The notes under the pieces: generated by a model
What the model saw: the letters and a program-made list of their open reading frames with translations, nothing else
Database searches by the model: none
What the model was told of the DNA's origin: nothing
Shown here: positions 14,759-39,350 of the stretch, one piece after another
Numbering within the stretch: the first letter of the stretch is position 1
Layout: the number at the start of each line of letters is the position of its first letter
Position numbers and translations under genes: made by a program
Assembly (NCBI GenBank): GCA_015143295.1
Contig: CM026570.1
Location: 29,257,648 to 29,321,647 of the forward strand
DNA from: Tetracentron sinense
Lineage: Eukaryota > Streptophyta > Magnoliopsida > Trochodendrales > Trochodendraceae
Reading direction: 5' to 3'
DNA length: 64,000 bases

Positions 14759-17700
14759 TCATTCAAATAATTCTGGGTACTTCGCTTTGACTTCGGCTTC
14801 ACGCTCCCATGTAGCTTCTTCCCGAGCATGGTGTTGCCATTGCACAAGAACCAAAGGGATTGTCTTGTTGCGAAGCACTTGATCTCTTCGATCCAAAATC
14901 TGAACCGGCTTTTCAATCAAGGTGAGGTCCTCTCGAATCTCCAACGGTTCCAAGTCTATGACATGCGAAGGATCCGCAATGTACTTCCGAAGCATAGACA
15001 CATGGAAGACGTTGTGAACTGCGGCCATGTGAGGTGGGAGAGCTACCCTGTAAGCAACCTCACCAACTCGCGTGATAATCTCAAAAGGCCCAACATACCG
15101 AGGACTGGGCTTGCCTCGCTTGCCAAATCTCATGATCCCTTTGCTAGGAGATACTTTCACAAAAACTTGATCCCCTACTTGAAATTCCAAGTCCCTACGG
15201 CGCGTGTCCGCATAACTTTTCTGGCGATCTTGAGCGGCTTTCAATCGATCCCGAATGATCTTAACTGTGTTTGCAGTTTGCTCAATCAACTCCGGACCAA
15301 GTACTTTCCTTTCTCCTACCTCATCCCAATAGAGAGGAGACCTACGACTTCGCCCATACAAGGCCTCAAATGGTGCCATTTGGATACTCGCCTGATAGCT
15401 GTTATTATAGGCGAATTCAACCAAAGGCAAGTGCTCTTCCCAACTGCCTCTGAAATCCAACATACAAGCCCGAAGCATGTCTTCAATGACTTGGTTCACT
15501 CTCTCGGTTTGTCCATCTGTCTGTTGATGAAAAGCGGTGCTGAAATCAAGTCGGGAACCCATAGCCTCCTGGAAGCTTTTCCCGAATCGTGATGTGAATC
15601 TTGGATCCCGATCTGACACAATACTAACGGGCACACCATGCAACCTCACCACTTCCTTGATGTACAAAGCGGCTAACTGACTAGAGTTGAAAGTAGTTCG
15701 GTAAGGCAAGAAGTGAGCGGACTTCGACAAACGATCCACTACTACCCATATCGCATCTGAGCCCCTTGCTGTCTTTGGCAAGCCAACTATGAAATCCATG
15801 GATATGTTCTCCCATTTCCACTCGGGAATCGGAAGGGACTGTAATAGACCTGCGGGCCGCATGTGTTCTGCTTTCACTGTTGACACACCAAGCACCGTGC
15901 TACATATTCCGCAACCTCCCTCTTCATATTCCGCCACCAAAAGTGACTCTTGAGGTTCCGGTACATCTTTGTACCCCCTGGATGCACTGTGTACTTCGAA
16001 CGGTGTGCTTCATCCAAAATCTCTCTTCGAAGATCTGCATTGGCTGGGACGCACAGCCTTCCCTTGAATGTGATAGCACCCCGACTAGTGAGAGAAAAAT
16101 CTTCACTGCCCTTGGCAACTTCCTTGTCCCGGAAAGCCAACAATTCCGCATCCATGGCTTGATATGCTTGGATCAAATCTATAATGTACGGCCGAACCGT
16201 AACATTTGCCAAGGTAGGACCACGGACAGAGTTATTCACACTGATGTCCAGATTTGCCAAATCTTCTAGTAGCTTTCATTCTTGAACCAACATGTGTGCT
16301 AACAACCCCTGAGGTCTTCTACTCAAAGCATCAGCCACTACATTTGCCTTACCCAGGTGGTATTGAATGGTACAATCATAGTCCTTCAGAAATTCCATCC
16401 AACGCCGTTGCCTTAGATTCAATTCCTTTTGGGAAAAGAGGTACTTGAGGCTCTTGTGGTCCGTATACACATAGAATTCCACCCCGTATAAGTAATGTCG
16501 CCAGATCTTGAGTGCAAACACGACTGCGGCAAGCTCTAAGTCGTTCGTGGGGTAATTCTTCTCATGCTCCTTCAATTACCTCGATGCATAGGCAATGACC
16601 TTCTTGTGTTGCATAAGCACACATCCAAGTCCAACGTGTGAGGCATCACTGTACACCTCATACCCAAGAGGTCCGGATGGCACTGTAAGGACAGGAGCTG
16701 TAGTAAGCCTCTTCTTCAGTTCTGTGAAACTGATCTCACACTTGTCGCTCCATACAAACTTCGTATTCTTCCTTGTCAGGTAAGTAAGCGGTGCTGCAAG
16801 GCTAGAGAAACCCTCTACGAATCTCCTGTAGTAGCCTGCCAACCCAAGGAAGCTGCGTATCTCCGTAACACTCTTGGGCTTCGCCCAACTCATAACTGCT
16901 TCGATCTTCTTCGGATCTACCGAGATACCTTCTGCAGAAACAACGTGGCCTAGGAATGCCACCTCTTCCAACCAAAACTCACACTTGCTAAGTTTGGCGT
17001 ATAGCTTGTGCTCTCTTAGCATTTCCAAAGCAAGGTGTAGGTCGCGTGTGTGATCTTCCCTTGTCTGGGAATAGACCAAAATGTCATCAACAAATACAAT
17101 CACACACCTATCAAGATATGGCCGGAACACCCGGTTCATCAAATCCATAAAGGCTGCCGGCGCGTTCGTGAGTCCAAAAGGCATCACCAAGAACTCGTAG
17201 TGTCCATACCGAGTCCTGAAAGCAGTTTTGGGAACATCTTCCGCCTTAATCTTCAACTGGTGATAACCCGATCGAAGATCTATCTTTGAGAAAAATCTCG
17301 CTCCCTTTACCTGATCGAACAAAACATCAATTCTAGGCAATGGATACCTATTCTTTATAGTGACCTTGTTCAATTGCCGGTAATCGACGCACATCAGCAT
17401 CGAACCATCTTTCTTCTTAACAAACAACACCGGGGCACCCCACGGTGAGACACTTGGTCGAATGAAACCAAGGCCTTGTAATTCCTCCAATTGAGTCTTC
17501 AACTCCTTAAGTTCAACTGGGGCCATTCTATACGGAGCCCGAAAGATGGGAGTTGTGCCTGCTGCAAGCTCGATCACAAACTCAATCTCCCTGTCTGGAG
17601 GTAATCCTGGCAACTCCTCTGGAAACACATCCAGGAATTCACTCACGACTGGAATTGTCGATGAGTCCTTTGCCTCGGGGTTAGCTAGGCTCAACGCCGT

Positions 17701-18083
17701 AAAACGAGCGATATCTCTACCCTTCAACCCCCGAAAGTGAAATGGTTTTCCTTCTACCGGCTTGAAGAGTACCATCTTCTCAAAGCAAGCTATATGCCCA
17801 TGATGCGCTGCTAACCAATCCATTCCCAATATAACATCAAAGTCTTGGAATCCAAGGACGATGAGATCAACCGCCAACTCGTGGCTTCCAACTTGGACCA
17901 CACTATTTCTATACACTTTATCTATCAATACTGTTTTGCCGAGGGGAGTCGAAATGGCTAACTCCGGTTTTAGCTGTCTAGGCTCCTCAGAAAAGCCTTC
18001 TGAAAAACTCGGCGAGACAAACGAATGAGTAGACCCGGTATCAATCAACACTCGAGCCAAATACTCATTGACTAGTAGGGTTC
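14759..18083 (-). pseudogene. E2 pol: protease, RT, RNase H, integrase, chromodomain-like tail
   Basis: Minus-strand pol starting at the intron acceptor (18083). Protease has [12 protein letters not shown] has the catalytic [10 protein letters not shown] (near 17085); RNase H has EVYSDASH and DLELAAVVF; integrase has the H2C2 finger, then Asp (MDFIVGLP), Asp (VSDRDPRF), Glu (VIEDML) and the chromodomain-like end [17 protein letters not shown] with TGA at 14759-14761. Breaks: TAA at 16576-16578 (Gln codon in the SRQLKEHE region), TGA at 16276-16278 (Trp codon) and a 1-base loss near 15878 after CLVCQQ. Otherwise it is full length (about 1100 residues), so inactivation is fairly recent. Confidence 0.93.
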
Positions 18084-18229
18084 CTGAAATTTTAGCTAGC
18101 GGAGTTAATCCATGCATCAACAGCGTATACGTGTAGGTATATATACATATAGAACATGCCGAGTACGTACACAAAGAATATAGCATAACATAACAATCAC
18201 GAATAAAGAAAATAACTCCAAACGCGTAC
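18084..18229 (-). other. Predicted gag-pol intron (146 bp) of E2
   Basis: Donor CAAG|GTACGC, acceptor ATTTCAG|GAAC, A/T-rich body with a possible branch site (GATTAAC). Removal joins GTG CAA G to GA ACC CTA, giving [19 protein letters not shown] with no frame change. Unspliced, the gag frame runs into a stop within the segment. Splicing is inferred from sequence; the same arrangement recurs in E1 and E3. Confidence 0.6.
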
Positions 18230-19477
18230 CTTGCACCACATCATCAGATGCAAGTGCATCACCCTCTGTCAAAGCAAACACACGCCCCTGGTTCGCCTGG
18301 CGAGACTGAGGTGTAGACCGGGTAGTCTAAGATGACGCCTGATATGATCCTGCTGGGCGTGCTGGTGGCCTAATCCCCTGAGACTGGCCTGGTAAATGCC
18401 GGGTAAGGCATCCCTGATCACGTGGCCCTGGCGACCACAGTGAAAACATCCACCCGATGCTCTTAGGCAATCCCCTGCTGGGTGCCTTCGGCCGCATGAA
18501 GGGCAGGCCTCGTGTGTGCGGGTAGGAGGGGCCTGAGGTGGAGCATATCTCGCCACCTGAGGTGCAACTGGCCATGGGGCCGGGAGAGCCTGAGGTCGAG
18601 GTGCCTGTGGCACGTATTGCCGTGGTGCTGGGGCCGCATAAGTCGGCCTCATCGGTGGTGCTGGCCACGTATACTGATAAGGGCCGGTACGAGCCCGCCT
18701 CTCTGGAGGTGCTGAACTACTGGCTTGGCCTCTCGCCAACTCTCTCTTCTTAGACACCGCTTCAGAATTGGCCTCGACCAATAAGGCCTTGTCTACCACT
18801 TCAGGGTAGGTAGCATGCCTAAAAATGGAAACCTTCTCCATAATAACATCCTTGAGCCCTTGCTCAAATCTTTTCGCCTTCATTGCCTCAGTAGCAACCA
18901 TATGAGGCGCAAATCTCGACAATTCTGAGAACTTGGCCTCATAAGCGGCCACAGACATCGAACCTTGCTCAAGGTTGATGAATTCTCTCTCTTTCTTTTC
19001 CCGTGCACCGATCGGAAAATACTTCTTGTAAAAAGTATCTTTGAACTCATCCCAAGTCCAAGGTTGACCCTGCATGGTCAAATCTCGCGTCCTCAATGCG
19101 GACAACCACCAATGGTGGGCTTCACCCTCTAGCATGAAAACTGCCCATGCTACTCTATCCTCCTCTGTAGGCGAGAGGACCGCAAAAATATTCTCCATCT
19201 GGAGGATCCACGCCTCCGCAGCAAGAGGGTCCACACTCCCATGGAAGGATGGAGGCCTCAATCTCCTGAATGCCTCAACTCCAGCTGTATGATGTACTGG
19301 AGCTGCGGGCGGTGGAGTAGGTGCCGCCGACGATGGTATAGCTTGCCGAGCCGCCAGTATGGCGAGTGTCTCAACAATAGAGCCTAAGACCTGAGAGAGG
19401 TCCGGCTGCTCATCCTCATCCCGTGAAGAAGAGGAAGCTCTGGTATGTGGTCCACGACCCCGTGTGTTCCGTCTCAT
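18230..19477 (-). pseudogene. E2 gag (capsid and nucleocapsid)
   Basis: ATG at 19477 (MRRNTRGRGPHTRAS). The retrotransposon gag core includes GVEAFRRLRPPSFHGSVDPL, WILQMENIF, MLEGEAHHWW, FKDTFYKKYFP and EQGSMSVAAYEAKFSELSRF. The C-terminal part is Pro/Ala-rich, with a knuckle-like CPSCGRRHPAGDC and a CCHC knuckle CFHCGRQGHVIRD. One base is missing in the knuckle at the last Cys, shifting the frame; homology then continues to the intron donor at 18230. AYEAKF is intact here but deleted in both E3 copies. Confidence 0.92.
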
Positions 19478-19838
19478 GACTAAAGTCCTGAGAATAATAA
19501 CACCACATGAGTCTAACTTGAAACCACAGTTTATTTCAATGTCATTTCACAATAATTCAATTTGTATTAGTTGTATAATACTAATATACATCACATCAAG
19601 TCATCAGAGTATTCATCACATTATACTTATACTTTAGTGTTCTAGCGTACCTAGGACCCGTACTTGGTTAAAGCAACCATTTTAGACTAAGACTAAAGTT
19701 TAGTCTTAAACTTGGAACCAGACTCGTTCCCGACTCACTTCCTTCCTAACTTGTTTCCTAACATATGCTCTTGTCAAGCCGTGGTATAAGATTCTAAGTG
19801 ACCCTAGAGACCTAAAGCCTAAGCTTTGATACCACTTC
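19478..19838 (-). other. E2 leader with primer-binding site
   Basis: The PBS at 19824-19835 reads GTGGTATCAAAG on the minus strand, one base off the initiator-tRNA-Met match. The rest is noncoding leader ending TTCTCAG then GACTTTAGTC before the gag ATG. TTCTCAG just before ATG is shared with E1 and E3 and could be a leader splice acceptor. Confidence 0.75.
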
Positions 19839-20140
19839 TGTCGCGACCCAAAACCCACCCTAGGAGTTAGAGTGAATCGTGGACGACTAAATCATGACTT
19901 ACATGACTTGCTTGACAAACCACCTGCAAAACACCCACAGAGCATATACAATAGAGGATAACAGCGGAAGCATAGCTATAAGACACAGCGGAATTCTAAC
20001 GAACCTCTAAGTATATACACATGGTCCAAGTTTTAATACAAAGAAATCAAAACAAAGAAAGTGCGGACATGCCCGCCAAAATACATGGATATAATCACTC
20101 ATGCTCACCCACAGCTAATCCACTCAGAATCTAACACCAC

Positions 20141-20260
20141 CTACTGATAACCCTCTACGGGAGGTTCCTCAAAAGGCTCCTCGACGTACTCCTCCTCCAC
20201 CCATGGACCAGGAGCACAAACATCAAATGGAGTAGCAGCTCCCTCAGAACCTGCCGACAT
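20141..20260 (-). CDS. LTR micro-ORF, E2 5' LTR (39 codons)
   Basis: Complete frame starting MSAGSEGAATPFDV, core PWVEEEYVEE, ending VEGYQ before TAG at 20141-20143. It differs from the 1471 copy by two residues (Thr for Ala at position 10, Phe for Leu near 30). Confidence 0.5.
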   Translation of the reverse strand: MSAGSEGAATPFDVCAPGPWVEEEYVEEPFEEPPVEGYQ

Positions 20261-20539
20261 AAGAAGTACGGCTGAGCATGGAATACTCAGCGGGTACTAA
20301 ATACTAACCAACAGTCATAGTATACAGATAGCATACATAAAGTAGGAAGCACGTTGCATATATAGAACAGGAACAATTTATATCATACAAGGAAGTAAAG
20401 CAATTTATATTCATGCTTGCATTCAGAAAGACTGATAAAACCCTTGAAAACATCGTGCACTTGACTTGACTTGAAATACCCTTTGCGTGATTGGGAACTT
20501 GTTAACCGTGTCATGCTTGTCATGCTTGCATTTTCATAA

Positions 20540-20830
20540 TTTAAACATGTTCACATGCCTAGTTGCCGTTCATAGTCCGTCGCAACTAGTACCCTATATG
20601 CAGATGGGTATGCCTAGTTTCCGTTCATAGCCCGTCGCAACTAGCATCCATGCGGAATGTGAATGCCTAGTTGCCGTTCATAGCCCATCGCAACTAGCAT
20701 CCATGCGTGTAATGCCATGCAGAGTTATGCGTGTCATGTGATGCTATGCTATACGTGTCATGCCATGCTATGCTATGCGTGTCATGCGATGCTATGCATG
20801 TCATGCGAGGGGATGGGAGACCTTTCCCTA
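20540..20830 (-). repeat. Two short tandem repeats in the E2 5' LTR
   Basis: Three units of about 60 bp with GCCTAGTTGCCGTTCATAG and CGTCGCAACTAG, then six or more copies of a 12-25 bp unit around GCGTGTCATGC/GATGCTATGC. They occupy the place of the GGGTCTCCC array in other tail-2 LTRs. Confidence 0.8.
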
Positions 20831-21746
20831 TGAAATGCATGATTGTCTTGCCCATGTCAAAAGCGAAGTAAAACATATCTTAGGATATGCCCCACCTCTA
20901 CGTCCCATACTTAAAACATCGGTAAATCACGTCATTTCATGCGTGCTCGTGAGATCGTGTGCATACTTGCATTTGGAATTAAATATGGTAATTTGGGGTA
21001 ATTCACAAAGCATAGCATATAACAATTTAAGTGAGTAATAATCTACGCATTTTAAGAAATGTAAGAAACACACTATCATGAACCCTAACAAATTTCAAGA
21101 GTAATTAAGCATGGGTTCCCTTAATTTATCATTTATTTTGTTCACCTTGGCATTTCATCAAACAAGGGGTGTGTTCATTATTCACTTAAACCTAGATCAT
21201 GCTTTTCTAGGTGGGTTATACTCACATCACACTTGTATGTTCATTATTGGTACAATGCCCTTTCCCATTCGTTCATCACATCATCCACACGGCATCCATT
21301 CGCCAACATCCATCTCCATTCACCATTCATACCACCAATCTCATAACACATATATAAGTGAAGGAAAACAAGGAGAAACAAAGGAAAAAGGGAAGCTATA
21401 ACTAGGAGGGTAGTAAGAAGTACCGACCTTGATCAATGAGGAAGAAAACTCCCCCAAAAACGTGCGTGTAGATGCTGCCCTAGCTTGGGAAAAGTGCTCC
21501 TCACGAGCTTGAACCTTGATCTTGAAGAAAAATGAGCTTGAGGATGATTGTGGGTCTCAAAACCCCTTTGATTATTCTCCAAAAGTAAAACCCTAGCTTA
21601 GGAAACCCTTTCTCCTCTCTTCTAATCCCCCAAATCTCTCTAAGTGTTGAGAATGAGCCCTAAAGGCTCGGGTTAAACTCTTAAGGTAAGAGTGAACCGA
21701 CCAAAAAACCATAATACCCTTACTGAAATTTCTGCAAAAACGCGAG

Positions 21747-21932
21747 TACCGAGCGATCGGTGTTAATGACCGATCGATCGGTTGCCTACCGATCGATCGG
21801 TTTCATAACCGAGCGATCGGTTAAAATTTCACTCTCTGGAAAATTTCCCCATACAAAAATCTAGACCAGTCGATAGCCTCCGAGCGATCGGTTTTGGACC
21901 GATTGATCGCTCCATGGACCGAGCAATCGGTT
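21747..21932 (-). repeat. Palindrome cluster CCGATCGATCGG in E2 5' LTR
   Basis: Seven or eight dyads, several perfect (ACCGATCGATCGGT at about 21770 and 21788). Two groups flank a spacer with GGAAAATTTCCCCATAC, as in S1 and E3. Confidence 0.85.
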
Positions 21933-22190
21933 GCCTGCAGGTCCAGACTGTTTGGCCATATCTTTTGACTCGCTCGTCGGATTTTGATGATTCAGCTTGC
22001 GTTGGGTTTGTACTTCGAAAAGGAACATTTCTGACGTTTCAGAATTTCTAATTTCTTCCTTATTTATTAATTATACCTCTTTAAAGGCAAAATGGAAACG
22101 AAAGTGTCATGCATTAAATGTGAAAAGGTCCGGGGCTCTACATTAGGTTAGAAATGATTTAGACCCTAAAACCCTCGAAATACAACCCCT

Positions 22191-25272: not shown

Positions 25273-25747
25273 TGTAGAGCCCCGGACCTTTTCACATTTA
25301 ATGCATGACACTTTCGTTGCCATTTTGCCTTTAAAGAGGTATAATTAATAAATAAGGAAGAAATTGGAAATTCCAAAATGTCAGAAATGTTCCTTTTCGA
25401 AGTACGAACCCAACGCAAGTTAAATCGTCAAAATCGGACGAACGAGTCAAAAGATATGGCCAAAACAGTCTGGACCTGCAGGCAATCGATCGCTCGGTTA
25501 TGCACTAAGGACGTAGCTCGGAAGGCACTAAGGACGTAGCTCGGAAGGCACTAAGGACGTAGCTCTGACAACGTACCCTGATAAGGTAGCTTTAGCTCTG
25601 ATAACGTATACGTTGTGCGTCCGTTGTGCAACAGACAACGGGTACGTTGTACAGCAAACAACGTGTACGTTGTACAGCTCACGATGGGCACGTTGTACAT
25701 AAGACAATGGACAACGAGCTCAGCACTATGCACAACACAACGTGACA

Positions 25748-26024
25748 ATGGGTTCGGCACCCTTCACAGCACAACGGGTTCGGCACCCTTCACAGCACAA
25801 CGTGTTCGGCACTATTCACAGCACAACGTGTTCGGCACTATTCACAGCACAACGTGTTCGGCACTATTCACAGCACAACGTGTTCAGCACTATTCACAGC
25901 ACGACGTATTCGGCACTATTCACAGCACAACGTGTTCGGCACTATTCACAGCACAACGTGTTCAGCACTATTCACAGCACAACGTGTTCGGCACTATTCA
26001 CAGCTCAACGTGTTCGGCACTCGT
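25748..26024 (+). repeat. 26-bp tandem array, about 10 units
   Basis: Plus-strand units read TTCGGCACTATTCACAGCACAACGTG with single-base variants (TTCAGCAC, GACGTATT). The first two units have ACCCTTC in place of ACTATTC. Each unit holds an AACGTG core. Confidence 0.95.
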
Positions 26025-26992
26025 GTTTTTGCAGAAATTTTAGTAAGGGTATTATGGTCTTTTGGTCGGTTCACTCTTACCTTAAGAGTTTAACCCGAGC
26101 CTTTAGGGCTCATTCTCAACACTTAGAGGATTTGGGGGATTAGAAGAGAGGAGAAGAGACTCTAACCTAGGGTTTTGTTTTTGAGGAGAAATCAAAGGGG
26201 GTTTAAGAACCCTAGATCATCCTCAACTTGGATTGCTTCAAGTTCAAGGCTGAAGCTTGGGTGGGGTGCATTCTCCAAGCTAGGGCAGCACTCACTCACG
26301 TTTTTGAAAGGGGTTTCTTCCCCAACACAAGTCTCCTTCAAGCAAAGCGTTCCTCTTTTCAAGTGGAAGCTCCAATCAAGGTTTACAACCAAGATCAAGC
26401 CTTGATTTAAGGTTAGTACACCCTACTAACTTACCCTAGCAAAGATCTAGGTTTTCTATATAAAAATGTGATTCTTTATATTATGTTTTCCTCCTTATGA
26501 AATGTGTTATCCCCCATTAAATATAAACAAGATAATGGAAAATGTGTGGATGGAATGTTGGATGTGGCGATTGGATGCCGAGATGTATGTTGTGTGATGT
26601 GTGTGATGGAAATGGTGGATGGGTATTTTACCAATAATGAACTTACCTTGATGTTTGGATGGAAAATATGCGCTAAAAAGAACATGATGAATTATTAAGA
26701 AACATTGCATGTGTTGTGTCTGAAAAAATGCCTAAACGATGAATAAATGATCTAAATGAAGAATATGGAAATGGGTTTTATGCATGCGTTCTTATAAATG
26801 ATAAATTGATCAAATGTTATGCAAACTACTTAAGTTACCTATGTTCATATCATGAATTGAATTGTAATGTCATATCTTGGTTATCCTCATTATCATGATT
26901 GTCATTATGGACACGTACACGAGCACGCATGATAGCATGAACCGAGATTTCAAGAGCATGTGCATATAATAAACAACAAGAAAATATTGCAT

Positions 26993-27388
26993 GTCAAGGA
27001 GGTTGGTAGCCCAGGGAGAATTCGGGTACTAGCCTCTGGCTCACAAGATAACCCCTAAAACACCTATTGTCAAGGAGGTTGGTAGCCCAAGGAAAATTCG
27101 GGTACCAGCCTCTGGCTCACAAGAAAACCAAACATTTCATATCAAGGAGGTTGGTAGCCCAGGGACATTCGGGTACTAACCTCTGGCTCACAAGTGCATT
27201 GCATATTAAGGAGGTTGGCAGCCCAGGGAGATTCGGGTGCTAACCTCTGGCTCACAAGTGCATTGCATATCAAGGAGGTTGGCAGCCCAGGGAGATTCGG
27301 GTGCTAGCCTCTGGCTCACAAGTGCATTGCATATCAAGGAGGTTGGCAGCCCAGGGAGATTCGGGTGCTAGCCTCTGGCTCACAAGTT
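26993..27388 (+). repeat. CAAGGAGGTTGG tandem repeats, 6 units
   Basis: Units start near 26996, 27071, 27144, 27207, 27269 and 27333; the last three are almost identical, suggesting recent expansion. The 3' LTR of the same element has five. Confidence 0.92.
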
Positions 27389-27675
27389 ACAAGATGGAAG
27401 TTTACAAGATGATGATCATGCATTGATGCACGCACGCATACATGATTTCTACGAGGCATACTGAGACATGACATGCGTTTTCAAGCATTAGTTTTATCGG
27501 CGTTTTCGCATTCATGTACGCACGTCATGATGATTGTATTTTATCATGCCTTATACTGTTTCTTTTGTGATGCTTCTATTACTGCTTGTATGATATTACT
27601 GTTGTGTGTTTTATTATTGTTATGGTTTGCTAGTAGCTTGTACTCGCTGAGTATTCCATGCTCAGCCGTACTTTC

Positions 27676-27816
27676 ATGTCGGCAGGTACTGAGGAAGCCC
27701 TCGACCTGGAGCCTTGGGTCGAGGAAGAGTATATAGAGGAGAGAGAGCCAGCTATTCCATTACAGTCTCAGGCAGACCGAGACCTCAATGTGTGGCCATA
27801 CCTCGATTACTGTTGA
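27676..27816 (+). CDS. LTR micro-ORF, E1 5' LTR (46 codons)
   Basis: Complete frame from ATGTCGGCAGGT: MSAGTEEALDLEPWVEEEY, a middle with REPAIPLQSQADRDL and end WPYLDYC, TGA at 27814-27816. It would lie in the leader about 600 nt upstream of the gag ATG, so if translated from genomic RNA it is an upstream ORF. Pro before Glu-Pro-Trp is Leu here (CCG to CTG). Confidence 0.5.
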   Translation: MSAGTEEALDLEPWVEEEYIEEREPAIPLQSQADRDLNVWPYLDYC

Positions 27817-28100
27817 GGGGAGAGTATGAGAGGGTCTTGTGTATTTTGATATTTTGATAGGTGGGCCTGTCCACCTTAGACTTAGACATGTCTTGTATTT
27901 ATGTTAACTTGGAATACTATTTTGGATCATTAGAAGAAATGAAAATTTGTTTACGCTTCCGCATATATGATCGCTTCCGCGCTCTGATTATCATTGTTAG
28001 TACTGTATTTTATCTTGTGCATTACAGGATGGTTTGATAGGTACGTAGTGTGACACCTAAAATATCCCTAAACTCCTAGGGGGTATTTCGGGGCGTTACA

Positions 28101-28428
28101 GAGGTGGTATCAGAGCTCTAGGCATATGAGTCCCTAGGGTCACTTGGATGATTGAACAAGGTATTAGAATCACCTTAGAGAGTTGTATTCCAAGTATAGA
28201 CTAACAAGTTAGTCTTAGTCAAAATGGGTTGAACTTCAACCGAACATAGAGTCCTACGCTAGGAACACGGATTGTAAGTTATGCTATTGTGTTATATACC
28301 ATGTGTACATTATTTGTGTTGTACTTATTAAATATGCTTGATGAATATGTATTGAGTGAATTGCGAAATTTGTACCAAATGCGTATCCAAGTTAGACTCA
28401 TGTTGTATTGTCGTTCTCAGGAGAAATC
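28101..28428 (+). other. E1 leader with primer-binding site
   Basis: PBS TGGTATCAGAGCT at 28105-28117, matching the 3' end of plant initiator tRNA-Met. The rest is noncoding. GATT|GTAAGT (28274) and TTCTCAG|GAG (28420) could bound a 147-bp leader intron ending just before the gag ATG; this is weak evidence from consensus alone. Confidence 0.8.
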
Positions 28429-29664
28429 ATGAGACGCAATACCCGGGGTCGCGGGTACAACACGAGGGGTAATGGAGGTGATACTCCATCGGGTGATGAT
28501 CAACCCGACTTTGCCCAAGCATTCGCATCCATAGCCGAGACTTTGGCTATGTTGGTGGCAAGGCAACCGGCCACTCCGCCTAATGCGGCACTTATACCGG
28601 CTCCTCCTAACCGAGCCCAAGCCGGGATAGAAGCTTTTCGGAGGATGAGGCCTCCAACTTTTTATGGAAACATTGATCCACTTGTCACCGAGGGTTGGAT
28701 TCGGCAACTCGAGAAGATATTCTCGGTATTGGCGCCTACGGAAGTGGAAAGGGTCACTTGGGCCGCCTTTATGCTTGAAGGCGAGGCCGACCATTGGTGG
28801 AAGTCTGCACTTCGGACCCGAGAGTTAACCCAGCGAGGTCAAGACTGGACTTAGGAAGAATTCTTGGAGGTTTTCAACAAGAAGTACTTTCCGGTCGGAA
28901 TGAAAGAAAAGATGGAAGTTGAATTCATTACCTTGGAGCAAGGTAATATGTCAGTAGCGGCTTATGAAGCCAAATTTTTGGAGCTATCTCGATTGCTCCA
29001 AACATGATAGCGACCGAGGCTATGAAGGCCCGGAAATTTGAGAGAGGATTGAAGGCTTACCTCAAGGACCGAGTCTCGATGTTTAGACATGAGACATATT
29101 CCGAAGTTGTTGATAAGGCACTTTTGGCCGAGTCAAACTCCGTGGAGTTTTTCAAAAGAAGAGAAATAGAGAAAGGACAGTTGAGTAGTTCAGGGGAGAA
29201 GAGAGCAAGGACTAGCTTGTATCAGTCCACAGGGCCGGCTCAGTCATAGAGGATGTATTCGGCACCACAGGCTCCTCGCTCTTTTGCTCCATCGACCTTT
29301 CGCCCGGCTACCTCATATGCTCCTCGCCCCGCAGTTACTCAAGCTACGGGATATGCTCCTTCCTCCTATTTGCATGATGTCTGCACTCTTTGTGGAAGGA
29401 GGCATCCAGCAGGAGAATGCCGGAGGGTTTCAGGAAGTTGCTTCCATTGTGGTGACCATGGTCACATGGTTAGAGATTGTCCCCGACGTCAATTGCCAGC
29501 TCAGTCTTCGGGGAGCAGGCCCCCGATTAGGCAGACATCTCAGCCTAGCTCTTCTCAGGCTTCGAGGGCCTCACAGTCTACCCGGCCTCCTCGCCCAGCC
29601 ACCCAGGGCCGAGTCTTCGCCCTATCGGAGAGAGACGCACGTGCATCCGACGATGTCGTGCAAG
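28429..29664 (+). pseudogene. E1 gag
   Basis: ATG at 28429 (MRRNTRGRGYNTRGNGGDT), preferred over an upstream TTG because MRRNTRGRG is shared with E2. Capsid-type core: AGIEAFRRMRPPTFYGNIDP, WIRQLEKIFSVLAPTE, MLEGEADHWWKSALRTREL, NKKYFPVGMKEKMEVEF. Nucleocapsid has CTLCGRRHPAGEC and CCHC knuckle CFHCGDHGHMVRDC, then a Ser/Gln/Pro-rich tail. Breaks: TAG at 28852-28854 (Trp codon), a 1-base loss near 28992 (SRFAPNM region), TAG at 29247-29249. The frame at the end meets the predicted intron donor after DDVVQ. Confidence 0.93.
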
Positions 29665-29800
29665 GTACGCAAAAATTCTAGAGTCTAAGTTGTGTAAAAT
29701 TTCTATGGTTTATTATGTGATTATTTATACTAAGGGTTATTCTATGTATGATGCTTGTGATTGTTTGAAATCTACTAATAGTAGTTACTTAATCGCACAG
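29665..29800 (+). other. Predicted gag-pol intron (136 bp) of E1
   Basis: Donor CAAG|GTACGC at 29661-29670, acceptor ATCGCACAG|GCAC at 29792-29804, branch-like CTACTAATA at 29772-29780, A/T-rich body. Removal joins CAA G to GC ACT TTA and gives [22 protein letters not shown], matching the E2 and E3 junctions. Without removal, gag ends six codons past the donor (GTQKF then TAG) and pol has no gag-linked frame. Confidence 0.65.
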
Positions 29801-32800
29801 GCACTTTATTAGTGAACGAGTGTCTCGCCCGTGTGTTGATCGACACAGGATCCACTCACTCCTTTGTGTCACCTAGTTTCGCAAAGCGATTTTTGACTGA
29901 GTCTACTCCGTTAGAGCGGGAGTTGACCATTGCAACTCCACTCGGCAAGTCAGTTGATACGGACAAGATATTCAGGGATAGTGTGGTTCAAGTGGGGGAG
30001 AGTGAACTGTTAGCCGATCTCATCGTCCTAGCTTTTCAAGACTTGGATTTTGATGTCATCTTAGGGATGGATTGGTTGTCAAACCATCACGGGAATGTTG
30101 CGTGTTTTGAAAAGATGGTGAATTTCAAGCCGGAAGGGGGTAAGCCTTTTCACTTGCGAGGATTAAGAGAGAGGGACATTTCTCGCCTCGCAGCCTTGAG
30201 TATAGCAAACCCAGAAGCACAAAACTCCTCGGCTATTCCGGTCGTGAGTGAGTTCTTGGACGTGTTTCCGGAGGAACTTCCCGGGTTACCTCCGAATCGG
30301 GAGATTGAGTTCGCTATAGAGCTTACTCCGGGCACCGCTCCGATTTCAAGAGCCCCATATAGAATGGCCCTGATAGAGCTTGAAGAATTGAAGAAGCAAC
30401 TTGAGGAGTTACAACAACTTGGTTTCATCCAACCAAGTGTGTCACCGTGGGGAGCTCCTGTCCTTTTTGTAAAGAAGAAAGACGGGTCGACGAGAATGTG
30501 TATAGACTACCGTCAGTTGAACAAGGTAACTATCAAGAATCGTTATCCCTTGCCTAGGATCGATGACTTGTTCGACCAACTGAAGGGAGCGAGATTCTTC
30601 TCCAAAATTGATCTTAGATCAGGGTATCATCAATTAAGGATCAAGGCGGAAGATGTTCTGAAGACGGCTTTCAGGACTCGGTATGGGCATTACGAGTTCC
30701 TTGTCATGCCTTTTGGGCTGACGAATGCACCGGCGGCATTCATGGATTTGATGAACCGGGTGTTCCGATCTTACTTGGATCGATGCGTGATTGTATTCAT
30801 TGATGACATTTTGGTGTATTCCCAGACACGGGAAGATCATGCACGAGACCTCCGCCTTGCTCTAGAGATGTTGAGAGAGCATAGGCTATATGCCAAATTG
30901 AGTAAGTGCGAGTTCTGGTTAGAGAAGGTCGCATTTCTTGGACACGTGGTGTCGGTCGAGGGCATTTCTGTAGATCCAGCCAAGGTTGAGGCAGTCATGA
31001 GTTGGGAGAGGCCCAAGAGCGTCACGGAGATACGTAGTTTCCTCGGATTGGCAGGCTACTACCGGAGATTTGTGGAGGGATTCTCCAGTTTGGCTGCACC
31101 TCTCACCTACTTGACAAGGAAAAATGCAAAGTTCAGTTGGAGTGACCGATGTGAAGTAAGTTTCCAAGAGTTGAAGAAACGCCTCACCACAGCCCCTGTC
31201 CTTACTGTGCCATCTGGACCTTTTGGGTATGAGGTGTATAGTGATGCCTCGCACGTCGAACTCGGGTGTGTCCTAATGCAACACAAGAAAGTCATTGCCT
31301 ATGCATCAAGGCAGTTGAAAGAGCATGAAAAGAATTACCCCACACATGACTTAGAGCTTGCCACAGTCGTGTTTGCACTCAAGATCTGGCGACATTACTT
31401 ATACGGGGTGGAATTCTATGTGTAAACGGACCACAAGAGCCTCAAGTACCTCTTTTCCCAAAAGGAATTGAATCTAAGGCAATGGCGTTGGATGGAATTT
31501 TTGAAAGACTATGATTGTACCATTCAATACCACCCGGGTAGAGCAAATGTAGTGGCTGATGCTTTGAGTAGAAGACCTCCAGGGTTATTAGCATGCATGT
31601 TAGTGCAGGAATGGAAGCTACTTGAAGACTTGGCAAATCTGGACATTAGTGTGAATGACTCTGTTCGTAGTCCTATCTTGGCAAATGTCACGGTTCGGCC
31701 ATACATTATAGATTTGATCCAAGAATACCAAGCCACGGATGCTGAATTGTTGGCTTATCGGGACAAGGAAGTTGCTAAGGGTAGTGAGGACTTCTCTCTC
31801 ACTAGTCGGGATGCTATCACATTCAAGGGAAGGCTGTGCGTCCTAGCCAATGTAGATCTTCGAAGAGAGATTTTGGAGAAGCACACCGTTCGAAGTACAC
31901 AGTGCATCCAGGGGGTACAAAGATGTACCGGAACCTCAAGAGTCACTTTTGGTGGTGGAATATGAAGAGGGAGGTTGCGGAATATGTAGCACGGTGCTTG
32001 GTGTGTTAACAGGTAAAAGTAGATTACATGCGGCCTGCAGGTCTATTACAGTCCCTTCCGATTCCCGAGTGGAAATGGGAGAACATATCCATGGATTTCA
32101 TAGTTGGCTTGCCAAAGACGGCAAGAGGCTCAGATGCGATATGGGTAGTAGTGGATCGTTTGACGAAGTCCGCTCACTTCTTACCTCACCGAACTACTTT
32201 CAACTCTAGTCAGTTAGCCGCTTTGTATATCAAGGAAGTGGTGAGGTTGCACGGAGTGCCTGTTAGTATTGTATCGGATCGGGATCCAAGATTCACATCA
32301 CGATTCTGGAAAAGCTTCCAGGAGGTTATGGGTTCCCGACTTGATTTCAGCACCGCTTTTCATCCACAGACGGATGGACAAACCGAGAGAGTGAACCAAG
32401 TCATTGAAGACATGCTTCGGGCTTGTATGTTGGATTTCAGAGGCAGTTGGGAAGAGCACTTGCCTTTGGTTGAATTCGCCTATAATAACAGCTATCAGGC
32501 GAGTATCCAAATGGCACCATTTGAGGCCTTGTATGGGCGAAGTTGTAGGTCTCCTCTCTATTGGGATGAGGTAGGAGAAAGGAAAGTACTTGGTCCGGAG
32601 TTGATTGAGCAAACTGCAGGCACAGTTAAGATCATTCGGGATGGATTGAAAGCCGCTCACGATCGCCAGAAAAGTTATGCGGACATGCGCAGTAGGGACT
32701 TGGAATTTCAAGTAGGGGATCAAGTTTTTGTGAAAGTATCTCCTAGCAAAGGGATCATGAGATTTGGAAAGCGAGGCAAGCTCAGTCCTCGGTATGCTGG

Positions 32801-33131
32801 GCCTTTTGAGATTATCACACGAGTTGGTGAGGTTGCTTACAGGGTAGCTCTCCCACCTCGCATGGCTGCAGTTCACAACGTCTTTCATGTGTCTATGCTT
32901 CGGAAGTACATTGCGGATCCTTCGCATGTCATAGACTTGGAACCGTTGGAGATTCGAGAGGACCTCACCTTGATTGAAAAGCCGGTTCAGATTTTGGATC
33001 GAAGAGATCAAGTGCTTCGCAACAAGACAATCCCTTTGGTTCTTGTGCAATGGCAACACCATGCTCGGGAAGAAGCTACATGGGAGCGTGAAGCCGAAGT
33101 CAAAGCAAAGTACCCAGAATTAATTGAATGA
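29801..33131 (+). pseudogene. E1 pol: protease, RT, RNase H, integrase, chromodomain-like tail
   Basis: Protease [10 protein letters not shown] (near 29842); RT with [29 protein letters not shown] and catalytic FIDDILVYS (near 30797); RNase H EVYSDASH and DLELATVVF; integrase H2C2 finger, Asp (MDFIVGLP, near 32096), Asp (VSDRDPRF), Glu (VIEDML) and GPFEII; C-terminus [20 protein letters not shown] and [21 protein letters not shown] at 33129-33131. Breaks: TAA at 31423-31425 (Tyr codon in FYVYTDHKS), 1-base loss near 31875 (DEAHRSK), TAA at 32007-32009 (Gln codon). All catalytic residues are otherwise present. Confidence 0.95.
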
Positions 33132-33217
33132 GTTTTTGTATAAGTTTGTATATGACTTGTAATTTTCTTTTTGGTTTGTAATGCAAGTAGCGTCTAAATT
33201 TTGAGGACGAAATTTTT

Positions 33218-33231
33218 GTAAGGGGGGAGGA
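33218..33231 (+). other. Polypurine tract of E1
   Basis: GTAAGGGGGGAGGA directly before TGTAGAGCCCC. Confidence 0.88.
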
Positions 33232-33709
33232 TGTAGAGCCCCGGACCTTTTCACATTTAATGCATGACACTTTCGTTGCCATTTTTCCTTTAAAGAGGTA
33301 TAATTAATAAAAATAAGGAAGAAATTGGAAATTCTGAAATTTCAGAAATGTTCCTTTTCGAAGTACGAACCCAACGCAAGTTGAATCGTCAAAATCGGAC
33401 GAACGAGTCAAAAGATATTGCCAAAACAGTCTGGACCTATAGGCAATCGATCGCTCGGTTATGAACTAAGGACGTAGCTCGGAAGGCACTAAGGATGTAG
33501 CTCGGAAGGCACTAAGGACGTAGCTCTGACAACGTACTCTGATAACGTAGCTTTAGCTCTGATAATGTATACGTTGTGCATCCGTTGTGCAACAGACAAC
33601 GGGTACGTTGTACAGCAAACAACGTGTACGTTGTACAGCTCACGACAGGCACGTTGTACATAAGACAACGGACAACGAGCTCAGCACTATGCACAACACA
33701 CCGTGATAA

Positions 33710-34192
33710 CGGGTTCGGCACCCTTCACAGCACAACGGGTTCGGCACCCTTCACAGCACAACGTGTTCAGCACTATTCACAGCACAACGTGTTCGGCACT
33801 TTCACAGCACAACGTGTTCGGCACTTTCACAGCACAACGTGTTTGGCACTATTCACAGCACAACGTGTTCAGCACTATTCACAGCACAACGTGTTCGGCA
33901 CTATTCACATCACAACGTGTTCGGCACTATTCAGAGCACAACGTGTTCGGCACTATTCACAGCACAACGTGTTCGGCACTATTCACAGCACAACGTGTTC
34001 GGCACTATTCACAGCACAACGTGTTCGGCACTATTCACAGCACAACGTGTTCGGCACTATTAACAGCACAACGTGTTCGGCACTATTCACAGCACAACGT
34101 GTTCGGCACTATTCACAGCACAACGTGTTCGGCACTATTCACAGCACAACGTGTTTGGCACTATTCACAGCTCAACGTGTTCGGCACTCGTG
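33710..34192 (+). repeat. 26-bp tandem array, about 18 units
   Basis: Same unit as at 25748, with about 18 full copies. Two adjacent units share a 2-base loss (GCACTTTCAC), showing that units duplicated after mutating. Copies differ by isolated changes (CATCAC, TCAGAG, TTAACAG). Confidence 0.95.
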
Positions 34193-35157
34193 TTTTTGCA
34201 GAAATTTCAGTAAGGGTATTATGGTCTTTTGGTCAGTTCACTCTGACCTTAAGAGTTTAACCCGAGCCTTTAGGGCTCATTCTCAACACTTAGAGGATTT
34301 GGGGGATTAGAAGAGAGGAGAAGAGACTCTAACCTAGGGTTTTGTTTTTGAGGAGAAATCAAAGGAGGTTTAAGAACCCTAGATCATCCTCAACTTGGAT
34401 TGCTTCAAGTTCAAGGCTCAAGCTCGGGTGGGGTGCATTCTCCAAGCTAGGGCAGCACTCACTCACGTTTTTGAAAGGGGTTTCTTCCCCAACACAAGTC
34501 TCCTTCAAGCAAAGGGTTCCTCTTTTCAACTGGAAGCTCCAATCAAGGTTTACAACCAAGATCAAGCCTTGATTTAAGGTTAGTACACCCTACTAACTTA
34601 CCCTAGCAAAGATCTAGGTTTTCTATATAAAAATGTGATTCTTTATATTATGTTTTCCTCCTTATGAAATGTGTTATCCCCCATTAAATATAAACAAGAT
34701 AATGGAAAATGTGTGGATGGAATGTTGGATGTGGCGATTGGATGCCGAGATGTATGTTGTGTGATGTGTGTGATGGAAATGGTGGATGAGTATTTTACCA
34801 ATAATGAACTTACCTTGATGTTTGGATGGAAAATATGCGCTAAAAAGAACACGATGAATTATTAAGAAACATTGCATGTGTTGTGTTTGACAAAATGCCT
34901 AAACGATGAATAAATGATCTAAATGAAGAATATGGAAATGGGTTTTATGCATGCGTTCTTATAAATGATAAATTGATCAAATGTTATGCAAACTACTTAA
35001 GTTACCTATGTTCATATCATGAATTGAATTGTAATGTCATATCTTGGTTATCCTCATTATCATGATTGTCACTATGGACACGTACACAAGCACGCATGAT
35101 AGCATGAACCGAGATTTCAAGAGCATGTGCATATAATAAACAACAAGAAAATATTGC

Positions 35158-35490
35158 ATGTCAAGGAGGTTGGTAGCCCAGGGAGAATTCGGGTACTAGC
35201 CTCTGGCTCACAAGATAACCCCTAAAACACCTATTGTCAAGGAGGTTGGTAGCCCAGGGAAAATTCGGGTACTAGCCTCTGGCTCACAAGAAAACCAAAC
35301 ATTTCATATCAAGGAGGTTGGTAGCCCAGCGACATTCGGGTACTAACCTCTGGCTCACAAGTGCATTGCATATCAAGGAGGTTGGCAGCCCAGGGAGATT
35401 CGGGTGCTAACCTCTGGCTCACAAGTGCATTGCATATCAAGGAGGTTGGCAGCCCAGGGAGATTCGGGTGCTAGCCTCTGGCTCACAAGT
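35158..35490 (+). repeat. CAAGGAGGTTGG tandem repeats, 5 units
   Basis: Units start near 35161, 35237, 35308, 35371 and 35434, the last two near-identical. Confidence 0.92.
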
Positions 35491-35761
35491 TACAAGATGG
35501 AAGTTTACAAGATGATGATCATGCATTCATGCACGCACGCATACATGATTTCTACGAGGCATACCGAGACATGACATGGGTTTTCAAGCATGAGTTTTAT
35601 CGGCGTTTTCGCATTCATGTACGCACGTCATGATGATTGTATTGTATCATGCCTTATACTGTTTCTTTTGTGATGCTTCTATTACTGTTGTGTGTTTTAT
35701 TATTGTTATGGTTTGCTAGTAGCTTGTACTCGCTGAGTATTCCATGCTCAGCCGTACTTTC

Positions 35762-35941
35762 ATGTCGGCAGGTACTGAGGAAGCCCTCGACCCGGAGCCT
35801 TGGGTCGAGGAAGAGTATATAGAGGAGAGAGAGCCGGCTATTCCATTACAGTCTCAGGCGGACCGAGACCTCGATGTGGCCATACCTCGACTACTGTTGA
35901 GGGGAGAGTATGAGAGGGTCTTGTGCATTTTGATGTTTTGA
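35762..35941 (+). pseudogene. LTR micro-ORF, frameshifted copy in E1 3' LTR
   Basis: Begins MSAGTEEALDPEPWVEEEY like the 5' LTR copy, but GTGTGG has become GTGG near 35878, so the end changes from WPYLDYC to an unrelated sequence ending ILMF at 35941. The 5' LTR copy keeps the original end. The upstream ATG inside the stem-loop (35744) is in frame. Confidence 0.5.
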
Positions 35942-36183
35942 TAGGTGGGCCTGTCCACCTTAGACTAAGACATGTCTTGTATTTATGTTAACTTGGAATA
36001 CTATTTTGGATCATTAGAAGAAATGAAAATTTGTTTACGCTTCCGCATATATGTTAGCTTCCGCACTCTGATTATCGTTGTTAGTACTGTATTTTATCTT
36101 GTGCATTACAGGATGGTTTGATAGGTACGTAGTGTGACACCTAAAATATCCCTAAATTCTTTAGGGTATTTCAGGGCGTTACA

Positions 36184-36582
36184 GTCTCTCATTGCATGCA
36201 ATCAATCAGTGTACATTTAAGCACCCATATGCTGATGTGTAGTCTCCAATACAATAGTTCGAGATAGAACTACATCTTAACTATTGAGAACATCTTAGAA
36301 TAGTGGCAACCATATAAGTGAAGTGCCTAGCTTCACCTATAGCTATGACTATATAAGGTATAAGGAACTGAAAAGTTATATCTGCCTGTGATAATCCTAT
36401 CATATAACTTTTCTACAATATATCCTAAGGACCTTTATCAATATATTATATCGTATAGATCATCTCATGATCATGGTCAATTACGCATGATGAATACACA
36501 ATAGATAAAGAAGAAGTTTATATTAATCTAATTAATAAGAATCTTACAATCTAAATGACTTTTCTGGGCATCATGTCTAACA
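36184..36582 (-). mobile_element. Copia C1 3' LTR, start
   Basis: On the minus strand begins TGTTAGACATGATGCCC at 36582 directly after the purine tract AAGTGGGAGAT. Cut at 36183/36184 by E1; the first five bases GTCTC are the target-site copy. Confidence 0.88.
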
Positions 36583-36603
36583 ATCTCCCACTTGCCCTAA
36601 AAG

Positions 36604-37374
36604 TCATTGTGTCATAGATTTCAATCCCATACTATCTATATGTGTTACAAATACTTTATCTGATAAAGCCTTAGTCATCGAGTTAGCAACATTAAGTTGA
36701 GACCTAATCCTTGTAACATAATATCTTGCCTTTTAATTATCTCACGAATGAGATGATACTTCCGCTCCACATGTTTCATATTCTTGTGGCTCCTAGGTTC
36801 TTTGCTATGAGCTATTGCACCATTACTATCATAAAAGAGAGTAATAGGTTCAAGGGTTGAAAGAACATTTCCTAGCTTATACAAAAACCTTCTGAACCAG
36901 ACTGCTTCTTTTGTTGCTTTAGAAACTGCAGTATATTCTTCTTCTGTGGTGGAGTCAGCAATACTCTTATGTTTTATGTTGCGCCAACTGACAGCAACAC
37001 CACTCAGTTTAAACACATACCCAGATGTTGAAGCTCTATTGTTCGGATCAGATTAGAAATCGGAATTAGTATAACCCAATCCAACTAAATCATCGGATAG
37101 AAAAGTAAGCACATAATCCCTAGTTCTTTTCAGGTACTCCATAATGTGCTTCACTGCAATCCAATGATTAATACCTGGATTGCTTTGGAGCCGACTAACA
37201 ACTCCCACTGCATGACAATTATCCGGTCTAGTACATAACATGGCATACATGAGGCTCCCAACTGTTGAAGCTTAAGGGCACCTCTTCATCTACTCGATCT
37301 CATCAGCTGATGTAGGGGCCATCTTTTTAGACAAAGTGACATCATGTCCAAAAGGAATGAGTGTTGTCTTACAA
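36604..37374 (-). pseudogene. Copia C1 pol C-terminus (RT end and RNase H)
   Basis: Minus strand. MYAMLCTRPDNCHAVGVVSR is the copia RT-RNase H linker; then HWIAVKHIMEYLKRTRDYVL, STSGYVF, EEEYTAVSKATKEAVWFRRF, LFYDSNGAIAHSKEPRSHKN and HVERKYHLIREIIKRQDI, ending NSMTKALSDKVFVTHID and TGA (36604-36606). Stops lie in the EIE.MKRCP.AST segment and after NSDF; a frameshift follows DIMLQ. In this arm AEY of the RNase H motif is EEY and the segment is altered (SWRNIKHKS). Upstream pol is replaced by LTR D at 37375. Confidence 0.9.
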
Positions 37375-37572
37375 TGTCGTAACCCAAAATACCTCCTAGG
37401 AGTTAGTATACTTTGGCATCGTGAACTCACTACCAAACCATCCTATACAACATGTAAATCCTGTACAACATATAACACATATGATAGTGGAAGCAGAACA
37501 AAATTTTTCTTTCTATACATACCGTAATCCAAGTTTATAAACAAACCCAAAATAAAGAGTGAACAATTTCAC

Positions 37573-37725
37573 TCAACAAAATATGTGTACAATACTCTCC
37601 CTCTGCTCCTCCTGAGCCCTCTGCTCCTTAAGACTGCCCCAAGTCTCCTCCTCCTCAACATACTCTTTCTCGACCCACGGCTCCTGAGGGCACTCGCCAC
37701 AGATGTCGAAAGGACCTGTCGACAT
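37573..37725 (-). CDS. LTR micro-ORF in D (50 codons, left arm)
   Basis: Complete frame: MSTGPFDICGECPQEPWVEK, then EYVEEEETWGSLKEQRAQEE and an end ESIVHIFC before TGA. Core PWVEKEYVEE, longer Glu/Gln-rich C-terminal half than in other families, and Cys as the last residue as in tail 1 and E5. The ATG is in ATGTCGACAGGT, as in S1. Confidence 0.5.
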   Translation of the reverse strand: MSTGPFDICGECPQEPWVEKEYVEEEETWGSLKEQRAQEEQRESIVHIFC

Positions 37726-38214
37726 AAATATTTATGGCTGAGCATGGAATACTCAGTGTCTACAAACCACTAGATAGTAATGTCATAAATAAGAATACAA
37801 CATAAATACATCACAATTTAATCCATTTCACATACATTCCTGAAATCAGAGCGCAGAAAACAAAATCATATCATGTGCATATATCTTGGAGAAATACTAT
37901 CAGAAAACATCTTCTTATCATCTTTTATTTTTGCATATATAGGTATTTAAAATATCTTGATTTTTATCTTTTATTATCTTCTCATGTACGGGTATTTAAA
38001 ATACATTGGTATTCATCATTTGCTACCTCGGGAGTCGGACAACTAGTGCCCATACCCACAGAAGCTGGGTGGCCTAATATTATCCTCACATCTGGCTACC
38101 TTCGGAGTAGACGACCAGTATCTATTTCCCTTCCGGGCGGCCTCCTATCATTGGAGTCCGATGCCAGTATCCATTTTCCTTCCAAGCGGCCTGCTATTGT
38201 CCCTCCCCGTCGAC

Positions 38215-38400
38215 TTTTAACATATACTTCTTATACTTCCTATAGCCTCTTTTGCCTCTTATACTTTCCATGTACATCTTTTGCTTCTTATACGTTCTAT
38301 ATACTTCTTTTGCTTCTTATACTTTCCATATACATTTTTTGCTTCTTGTACTTTCCTCTTCTTATTCTTGTATTTCATCTTATATACTTATACTTCTTCT
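38215..38400 (-). repeat. TTTGCTTCTTATACTTTCC repeats in D
   Basis: About six imperfect 28-33 bp units. On the LTR's own (minus) strand they are A/G-rich (AAAGTATAAGAAGCAAAAG). Just beside them, at 38020-38200, lie three units of about 60 bp with GGCCTGCTATC and GTATCCATTTTCCTTCC. The right-arm copy is at 58020-58220. Confidence 0.85.
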
Positions 38401-39163
38401 TTTGGATACTCATAATTTAATAAAACTCGATCATGCATATGCATGTATCCGTGTAGCATTTGTGAATAACATGTTAGACATAAAGGAAACACTTTACGTA
38501 TAATCATGTAAGCAATACTCAACATAATCCATCCATTGCAATAGTCCATATACAATTAAATCACACCATTCCAATTACATCAAAAATAAGGTTTTTCTCC
38601 TTTGTTTTTTCCCAAAACTTATGTCTTTTAGCATGCTTTTCATCTTTGGATACTAACCTATAGAACATCTCAATATTTACCATCTTTTATTTGTTGGTTA
38701 TAAGCATAGCATCATCACAAATTAACTCACATCGCCATTCATAATATTTTATCTTGATATAGAAAAGGTTTAATGAAATCAATAGCTAGAAGAGTGTATT
38801 TCCACACATACGAGGCTGTATATATCTATTCTTATCAAAAACTCATGTTTATCATTAATGGTTTATGAAATTAGAAACTAGTAGAGTGTATCTACCTTTG
38901 TAATATCAAACCCCTCTTTGTTGAGAGCTTTAGAAGAATTGAGAAGGCTTGATGTAGAGGCCCGGACTTTTTCATGTTTAATGCATGGCACTTTCGTAAC
39001 CAATTTGCCTTTAATGTAGTACAATTAATAAATAAGGAAGAAATTAAAAATTCCAAAACATCAGAAATGTTCCTTTTTGAAGTATGAACCCAACGCAAGT
39101 TGAATCGACAAAATCCGACGAACGAGTCAAAAGATATGGCCAAAACAGTTTGGACCTGCAGAC

Positions 39164-39350
39164 CACCGATCGCTCGGACCATGGAGCGATCGATCGGTCC
39201 AAAACCGATCGATCGGTAGCTATCGACTGGTGCACTTTTTTGTATGGGAAAATTTTTCAGACAGCATGTTTTCGACCGATCGCCCGGTCAAGAACACCGA
39301 TCGCTCGGTAGGCAACCGATCGATCGGTCATAACCACCGATCGCTCGGTC
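39164..39350 (+). repeat. Palindrome cluster in E3 5' LTR (left arm)
   Basis: Eight dyads including ACCGATCGATCGGT at two places and CACCGATCGCTCGGT at three, in the same two-group layout as S1 (4121-4307). Confidence 0.88.

Follow-up and report, generated by a model that had tools for sequence, protein, structure and literature searches.

Capsid assembly requires Gag in excess over Pol and, to our knowledge, the basis of this excess in plant elements with a single open reading frame (ORF) is understood in only a small number of cases. In the Drosophila element copia, nearly all of pol is removed by splicing, which yields a Gag RNA (PMC3735527). Removal of a 104-nt intron from BARE1 RNA brings a stop codon 3 residues past Gag, and in EVD splicing is coupled to early polyadenylation (PMC3735527, PMC8892269). 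In sunflower, direct RNA sequencing detected short spliced gag isoforms without the capsid domain (PMC7730604). Protein sequence can also reach into a long terminal repeat (LTR): the polyprotein of the CRM group A chromoviruses extends into the 3′ LTR (PMC3059260), which is an exception to the view, stated in the initial annotation of the DNA studied here, that LTRs normally have no coding function. We analyzed 64,000 nt of Tetracentron sinense DNA (GenBank assembly GCA_015143295.1, contig CM026570.1, positions 29,257,648–29,321,647; hereafter the window), a plant-like sequence that consists mostly of Ty3/gypsy retrotransposons with LTRs of 2–3 kb. A short frame with the core PWVEE(E/K)Y is located in the last third of these LTRs. 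With confidence slightly above even, we read this frame as coding sequence of a last exon, situated in the 3′ LTR, that would be spliced onto Gag.

The proposal shares features with each of several described systems, as far as the excerpts available of the cited papers describe them. As in copia, the proposed splice would run from the end of gag across nearly all of pol and give a Gag-only messenger; unlike copia (PMC3735527), the element is a Ty3/gypsy chromovirus, and the last exon would lie in the LTR and encode a tail that is acidic and conserved. BARE1 and EVD are likewise plant elements that splice RNA for Gag without Pol, but an LTR-coded tail is described for neither of them in the excerpts of PMC3735527 and PMC8892269. 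The intron considered below resembles that of Ogre (PMC6317226) in being placed within the coding part and, as proposed, removed from only some transcripts, so that the full polyprotein is possible, and differs from it in lying between gag and protease. Element A (25273–36183), one of the elements discussed here, resembles CRM group A (PMC3059260), likewise plant chromoviruses, in that its 3′ LTR would code for protein sequence; unlike in that group, its pol stops ~100 nt upstream of the 3′ LTR, the LTR frame is separate from pol, and its LTRs start with TGTAGA and end with GTTACA rather than carrying TGATG/CATCA ends. The gypsy-type Cer1 CERV likewise joins Gag-frame exons to a 3′ exon by splicing (PMC10309623). 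Retrosat2, RIRE3 and RIRE8 are also Ty3/gypsy elements with LTRs of ~3 kb, and the annotated R region of Retrosat2 spans ~2 kb, a length that an intra-LTR leader plus intron would call for in the present elements; their extra ORF0, however, lies upstream of gag-pol, and a frame within the LTR is not described in the excerpt of PMC3485330. Both a spliced RNA for Gag alone and a protein end coded in the LTR are known. Their combination was not found in the open-access literature searched, in which no title or abstract start among the matches listed described an LTR-coded Gag exon.

The LTR frame and selection on its peptide

The initial annotation had located the frame in 15 LTR copies, which are named here by position, with a trailing minus for the reverse strand; the frame was present in all 15, in five LTR types. 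Type T1 comprises both LTRs of element A, namely 27676 in the 5′ LTR (27686–27816, +) and 35762 in the 3′ LTR (35772–35941, +; the would-be terminal exon, with its C-terminal part out of frame), together with 12057- (element B, 3′ LTR; 12057–12187, −), 60498- (60498–60667, −; the duplicate of 35772–35941) and 5804, a subfamily copy reading PWVKEEY (5814–5944, +). Read from the first base after CAG to the stop codon, the 27686–27816 exon gives (G)TEEALDLEPWVEEEYIEEREPAIPLQSQADRDLNVWPYLDYC. Type T2 comprises 1471 (1481–1590, +), 20141- (element B, 5′ LTR; 20141–20250, −), 40764 (40774–40871, +; 32 residues), 43562- (43562–43671, −), 48241- (element C, 3′ LTR; 48241–48350, −; LWVEEEY) and 55552- (element C, 5′ LTR; 55552–55661, −). 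Type D comprises 58709 (58719–58861, +) and its duplicate 37573- (37573–37715, −). The fourth and fifth types are represented by one copy each, 7048 (7055–7188, +) and 10918- (10918–11030, −).

The predicted tails are 32–47 residues long, and all seven that were measured are acidic, with isoelectric points of 4.05–4.24. Within the core, PWVE is kept in 13 of the 15 copies, the departures being 48241- and 5804. A second motif, (P/S)FD(V/I/L)C, lies upstream of the core in T2, D and 7048, and its Cys is replaced by Tyr in 43562- and by Gly in 48241- and 55552-. Length changes between copies had been described as whole codons; this holds apart from 35762 and 60498-, which go out of frame near the end. 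The Cys ending noted earlier is found in D, 7048 and the remaining T1 copies, and not in T2 or 10918-. As the initial annotation had cautioned, some copies are close relatives. Besides the two LTRs of element A, 35762/60498- and 37573-/58709 are pairs from an inverted duplication, and 40764/55552- lie near its edge, with 79% identity in the 100-base bin holding the frame. Because of the duplication pairs and the two LTRs per element, the independent copies are fewer than the 15 listed.

Selection on a peptide, which had been suggested from inspection of the codons, is supported by comparisons among the copies. For the ratio of nonsynonymous to synonymous substitution rates (dN/dS), 16 of the 18 within-type pairs gave values below 1 (0.06–0.57). 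For T1, three of the five copies were used, leaving out the frame-broken 35762 and 60498-, and the three pairs gave 0.06, 0.10 and 0.11; for T2, 13 of 15 pairs gave 0.13–0.57. In a permutation test, in which the same substitutions were dealt out at random, five of five gap-free pairs, which overlap and hence are not independent tests, had fewer amino-acid changes than the permutations (P = 0.0004, 0.0028, 0.0032, 0.0076 and 0.0114). Silent and changing codon differences in the proposed frame stood at 6:4, 7:5, 10:6, 8:8 and 9:9. In the two alternative frames, changing differences outnumbered silent ones in 10 of 10 cases, and stop codons were among them in eight of the 10. The core codons vary mainly at third positions, as originally observed: the extra states from first to third position number 3, 2 and 8, Pro ending in T, A or G and Val in C, G, A or T.

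A candidate splice acceptor at the start of the frame

The motif CAG|GT, which was sought by script at the start of the frame, opens the frame in 15 of 15 copies, at the same place and in the same phase in every copy. In the two codons overlapping this motif, GCA or ACA followed by GGT, the third base never changes, unlike in the Pro and Val codons of the core, which vary there. For this reason we read CAG|GT, which looks like a 3′ splice site, as a putative acceptor. The frame was confirmed to lie 3′ of a stem-loop sequence. In the 5′ LTR of element A, this conserved inverted repeat (27647–27666, +) ends 16 nt before CAGGT and holds a second AG (CTCAG|CC) in its 3′ arm. All 14 hairpins with at most 2 mismatches lead to CAGGT, beginning 35–39 nt from the first base of the hairpin, and then to the frame; the hairpin of 10918- is diverged and was missed by the scan at this threshold. 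Minimum-energy folding predicted a simple hairpin in five of the six T2 copies, 7048, D and 10918-, and in none of the five T1 copies nor in 43562- of T2. Since the hairpin does not form in all copies, no argument was rested on RNA folding.

Candidate upstream exons

In elements A, B and C, gag is separated from protease by an intron located at 29665–29800 (+), 18084–18229 (−) and 53513–53656 (−), respectively. The three introns are 136, 146 and 144 nt long, lengths that leave unequal remainders on division by 3, and their T content is 41–42% as compared with 23–30% in the flanks. Splicing restores GTLLVNE in all three elements, with the donor CAAG|GTACG (CAAG|GTACGC, phase 1, in element A) and the acceptor CAG|G(C/A)AC. 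This donor falls between the first and second bases of a glycine codon, which is the phase needed by the LTR frame (phase 1). Thus, by sequence, a splice donor is present at the end of gag in three of three elements, as a Gag-only messenger of the copia, BARE1 or EVD kind would require. Two further donors scored at least 2 in all of A, B and C, on the score table used: one at 28943 in gag (LEQG, phase 1 by our reading) and one at 32571 in pol. No known intron lies behind either of them, and 28943 may be an alternative candidate donor for the LTR exon.

At the other end of gag, the sequence TTCTCAG|GA, a candidate gag acceptor, lies 8–10 nt upstream of the gag ATG in A, B and C (28401–28431, +, in element A, with the first exon base at 28421 and the ATG at 28429). 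A splice to the LTR frame near the gag start was considered and rejected, since no site there that scored at least 2 was conserved across the three elements. Farther upstream, ~300 nt are common to T1- and T2-type LTRs and end in a donor, mostly AAG|GTNRGTAC, located 1.04–1.28 kb upstream of the LTR CAG|GT. Among 11 T1/T2-type LTR stretches, the donor was found in nine and both donor and acceptor in eight; the donor motif was not found in the 22.9-kb LTR. In element A, the AUG-free stretch that we read as a putative leader exon 1 occupies 26162–26411 (+), with the donor TTTAAG|GTTAGT and the first intron base at 26412. The leader was taken as 250 nt in the AUG counts, and the real transcription start may differ. 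The leader stretches contain 0 or 1 AUG each (0 in four of seven), a depletion that was not significant against dinucleotide shuffles (0.7–1.4 expected in 250 nt); the leader intron, by contrast, is AUG-rich (44–55 per kb).

The number of AUGs before gag depends on which sites are joined. In unspliced RNA, 77, 84 and 73 AUGs precede gag in A, B and C, respectively (the span in element A being 26412–28428). Joining the LTR donor to the gag acceptor leaves 0, 0 and 0, and joining it to the LTR acceptor leaves 17, 19 and 24, so the LTR acceptor is apparently not there for the translation of gag. The leader was also considered as a coding first exon spliced to the LTR frame and was rejected in this role: an in-frame AUG occurs in none of the nine stretches with the donor, and a stop codon (TAA) lies directly ahead of the leader/LTR joint in three of three T1 copies. 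The LTR alone therefore does not make the peptide via the leader splice. Directly before the conserved leader, 26-bp tandem arrays (~11–19 copies) lie within the LTRs at 25745–26021, 33708–34188 and 62266–62748.

Searches for relatives

A gag query of the protein library gave five matches. One of these (P0004) ends in VVQG-TSSQSFITAWY, which is like read-through of a retained intron. Another (P0003), a Musa protein labelled “isoform X2”, ends in SMVE-ENGYIQSCSSC; at the level of protein sequence only, this ending is suggestive. None of five tails compared matched a Pfam family. No related DNA was found in viral_contigs; like the other sources searched, these hold little plant DNA as far as the searches showed. 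In genome_contigs there were eight stray chromovirus contigs, and the tail frame was found in none of the eight, two of which (L001 and L002) end inside the LTR. L001, L002, L004–L006 and L008 are filed under Mycobacterium, Streptomyces and a Trichormus metagenome-assembled genome; these misfiled contigs are probably plant or fern contamination.

Proposed alternative splicing and competing explanations

In the proposed pathway, transcription would begin in the 5′ LTR, and the AUG-free leader exon would be spliced to the acceptor just upstream of the start codon of gag. At the 3′ end of gag, the donor (..VVQ G|GT) would then have a choice of two acceptors, both in phase 1. Use of the protease acceptor, 136–146 nt downstream, would lead to Gag-Pol; use of CAG|GT in the 3′ LTR, ~6 kb downstream in element A, would skip pol and lead to Gag with an acidic PWVEEEY tail. 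The expected junction would join ...GTGCAAG| to |GTACTGAGG. We infer that the LTR exon would supply the stop codon and that a poly(A) site in the LTR would follow. The most likely use of such an RNA would be as a Gag-only messenger giving surplus Gag, and the conserved tail might act as a short binding or assembly motif of that Gag isoform. We extend this more tentatively, at somewhat less than even confidence, to a whole group of long-LTR plant chromoviruses. These would have an alternative last Gag exon in the LTR, and splicing would choose between Gag-Pol and acidic-tailed Gag; the LTR would serve as promoter, poly(A) site and coding exon, and the tail would be a conserved functional motif.

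Several observations weigh against a Gag tail encoded in this way. A candidate upstream exon is identified in no more than two of the five types, T1 and T2: the gag intron was seen in A, B and C alone, whose LTRs are of types T1 and T2, and a search upstream of the frames in D, 7048 and 10918- gave no T1/T2 leader or donor motif. The gag donor is farther from the LTR acceptor than is the donor within the LTR itself, which also outscores it in T1 (5.9 versus 4.4). Two close T2 pairs have dN/dS values of 1.16 and 1.49, on 5–6 changes, and the 7-codon core across the five types, taken alone, shows a third-position excess with P = 0.06. In the window, all three of A, B and C have a decayed Gag (stops or frame breaks), and such broken copies give no information on living ones. 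The tail had no match in the protein library, in which a 43-residue query has little power and plant Gag relatives are few. Finally, the ATGTCG before the acceptor is common to three types and is not needed by the splice model, and this shared ATG keeps alive the reading of the frame as an independent micro-ORF.

This last reading, which was that of the initial annotation, takes the frame as a free-standing acidic micro-ORF that starts at MS(A/T)G and is translated, for instance, from an RNA in which the earlier, stem-loop AG (CTCAG|CC) is the acceptor. We consider it rather unlikely. The ATG would be the first AUG past the CTCAG|CC joint in T1, T2 and D, ATGTCG(G/A)CAGGT is common to these types despite differing bases immediately upstream, and the leader stretch, with at most one AUG, would also suit such an RNA. 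The in-frame ATG occurs in 13 of the 15 copies and in three of the five types, but the frames of 7048 and 10918- are intact (44 and 37 codons) without one, so the start that had been described as shared by three types is indeed common to them and does not extend to the others. Furthermore, the ATG context is poor, with no purine at −3 in T1, T2 or D; the earlier AG sits within the inverted repeat; and dozens of AUGs precede the frame in unspliced RNA begun at the LTR leader. The fixed third positions of the codons overlapping CAG|GT, in a frame whose core varies at such positions, also argue for an acceptor rather than for an internal part of a micro-ORF.

If CAG|GT were instead the acceptor of a 5′-leader intron within the LTR only, the frame downstream would be a by-product without a translated product. 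The leader donor and its 1.04–1.28-kb intron, found together in eight of the 11 T1/T2-type stretches, are consistent with this, as is the near-perfect LTR donor CCAG|GTAAGT in L001, an element from another source. However, the low dN/dS values and the permutation results are unexpected for untranslated sequence, and the 17–24 AUGs would remain before gag, and we judge this explanation improbable. Lower still in our estimate, and quite implausible, is a joining of the LTR exon to the end of pol, which would place the tail on the integrase/chromodomain. Pol-end donors were found in three of 11 stretches: TTAG|GTAAAT in L001 (~4073; score 4.8, phase 1 by our reading), GAG|GTAAGT in L002 (~3303; 7.2) and AAG|GTATGT in the 22.9-kb element (~22920, −; 6.9). 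The last of these lies behind the stop, though, and none of A, B, C, the 63-kb copy and the 3.1-kb element has a donor scoring at least 3.3 near its pol end. For the T1/T2 elements, a pol-tail fusion was rejected on these results.

Structure of the window and its elements

Element A is bounded by LTRs at 25273–28100 (+) and 33232–36183 (+) and flanked by a 5-bp target-site duplication, GTCTC. It encodes a reverse transcriptase/RNase H of the retrotransposon type (PF00078 and PF17919 matched) and an integrase followed by a chromodomain (PF00385 Chromo, 26.1 bits, above the cut-off of 25.1); the rve core scored 23.6, under its cut-off of 32.6. A Gag domain was recognized in element B (PF03732, 75.4 bits; cut-off, 24.1), in which a zinc knuckle match of 15.2 fell under the cut-off of 20.8. 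These domains are those of Ty3/gypsy chromoviruses, and from general resemblance the elements may belong to the Tekay/Del clade.

Element B (11773–22143, −) has a T2-type 5′ LTR but a T1-type 3′ LTR (95.5% identity to that of element A), and its flanks carry no matching 5-bp duplication; it is probably a recombinant of two elements. The inverted duplication (10.4 kb, 96.6% identity overall) relates 32453–42810 to 53630–63998. Its two arms are near-identical over most of 38.3–40.8 kb, beyond which identity per 100 bases forms a patchwork of 69–100% up to 42.8 kb.

Implications

The gag-LTR junction, if the proposed splicing is true, would be directly checkable by long-read RNA sequencing. The LTRs of these chromoviruses would then need to be annotated as coding, and constraint on the LTR would call for care in the dating of insertions, for which LTRs usually count as neutral.
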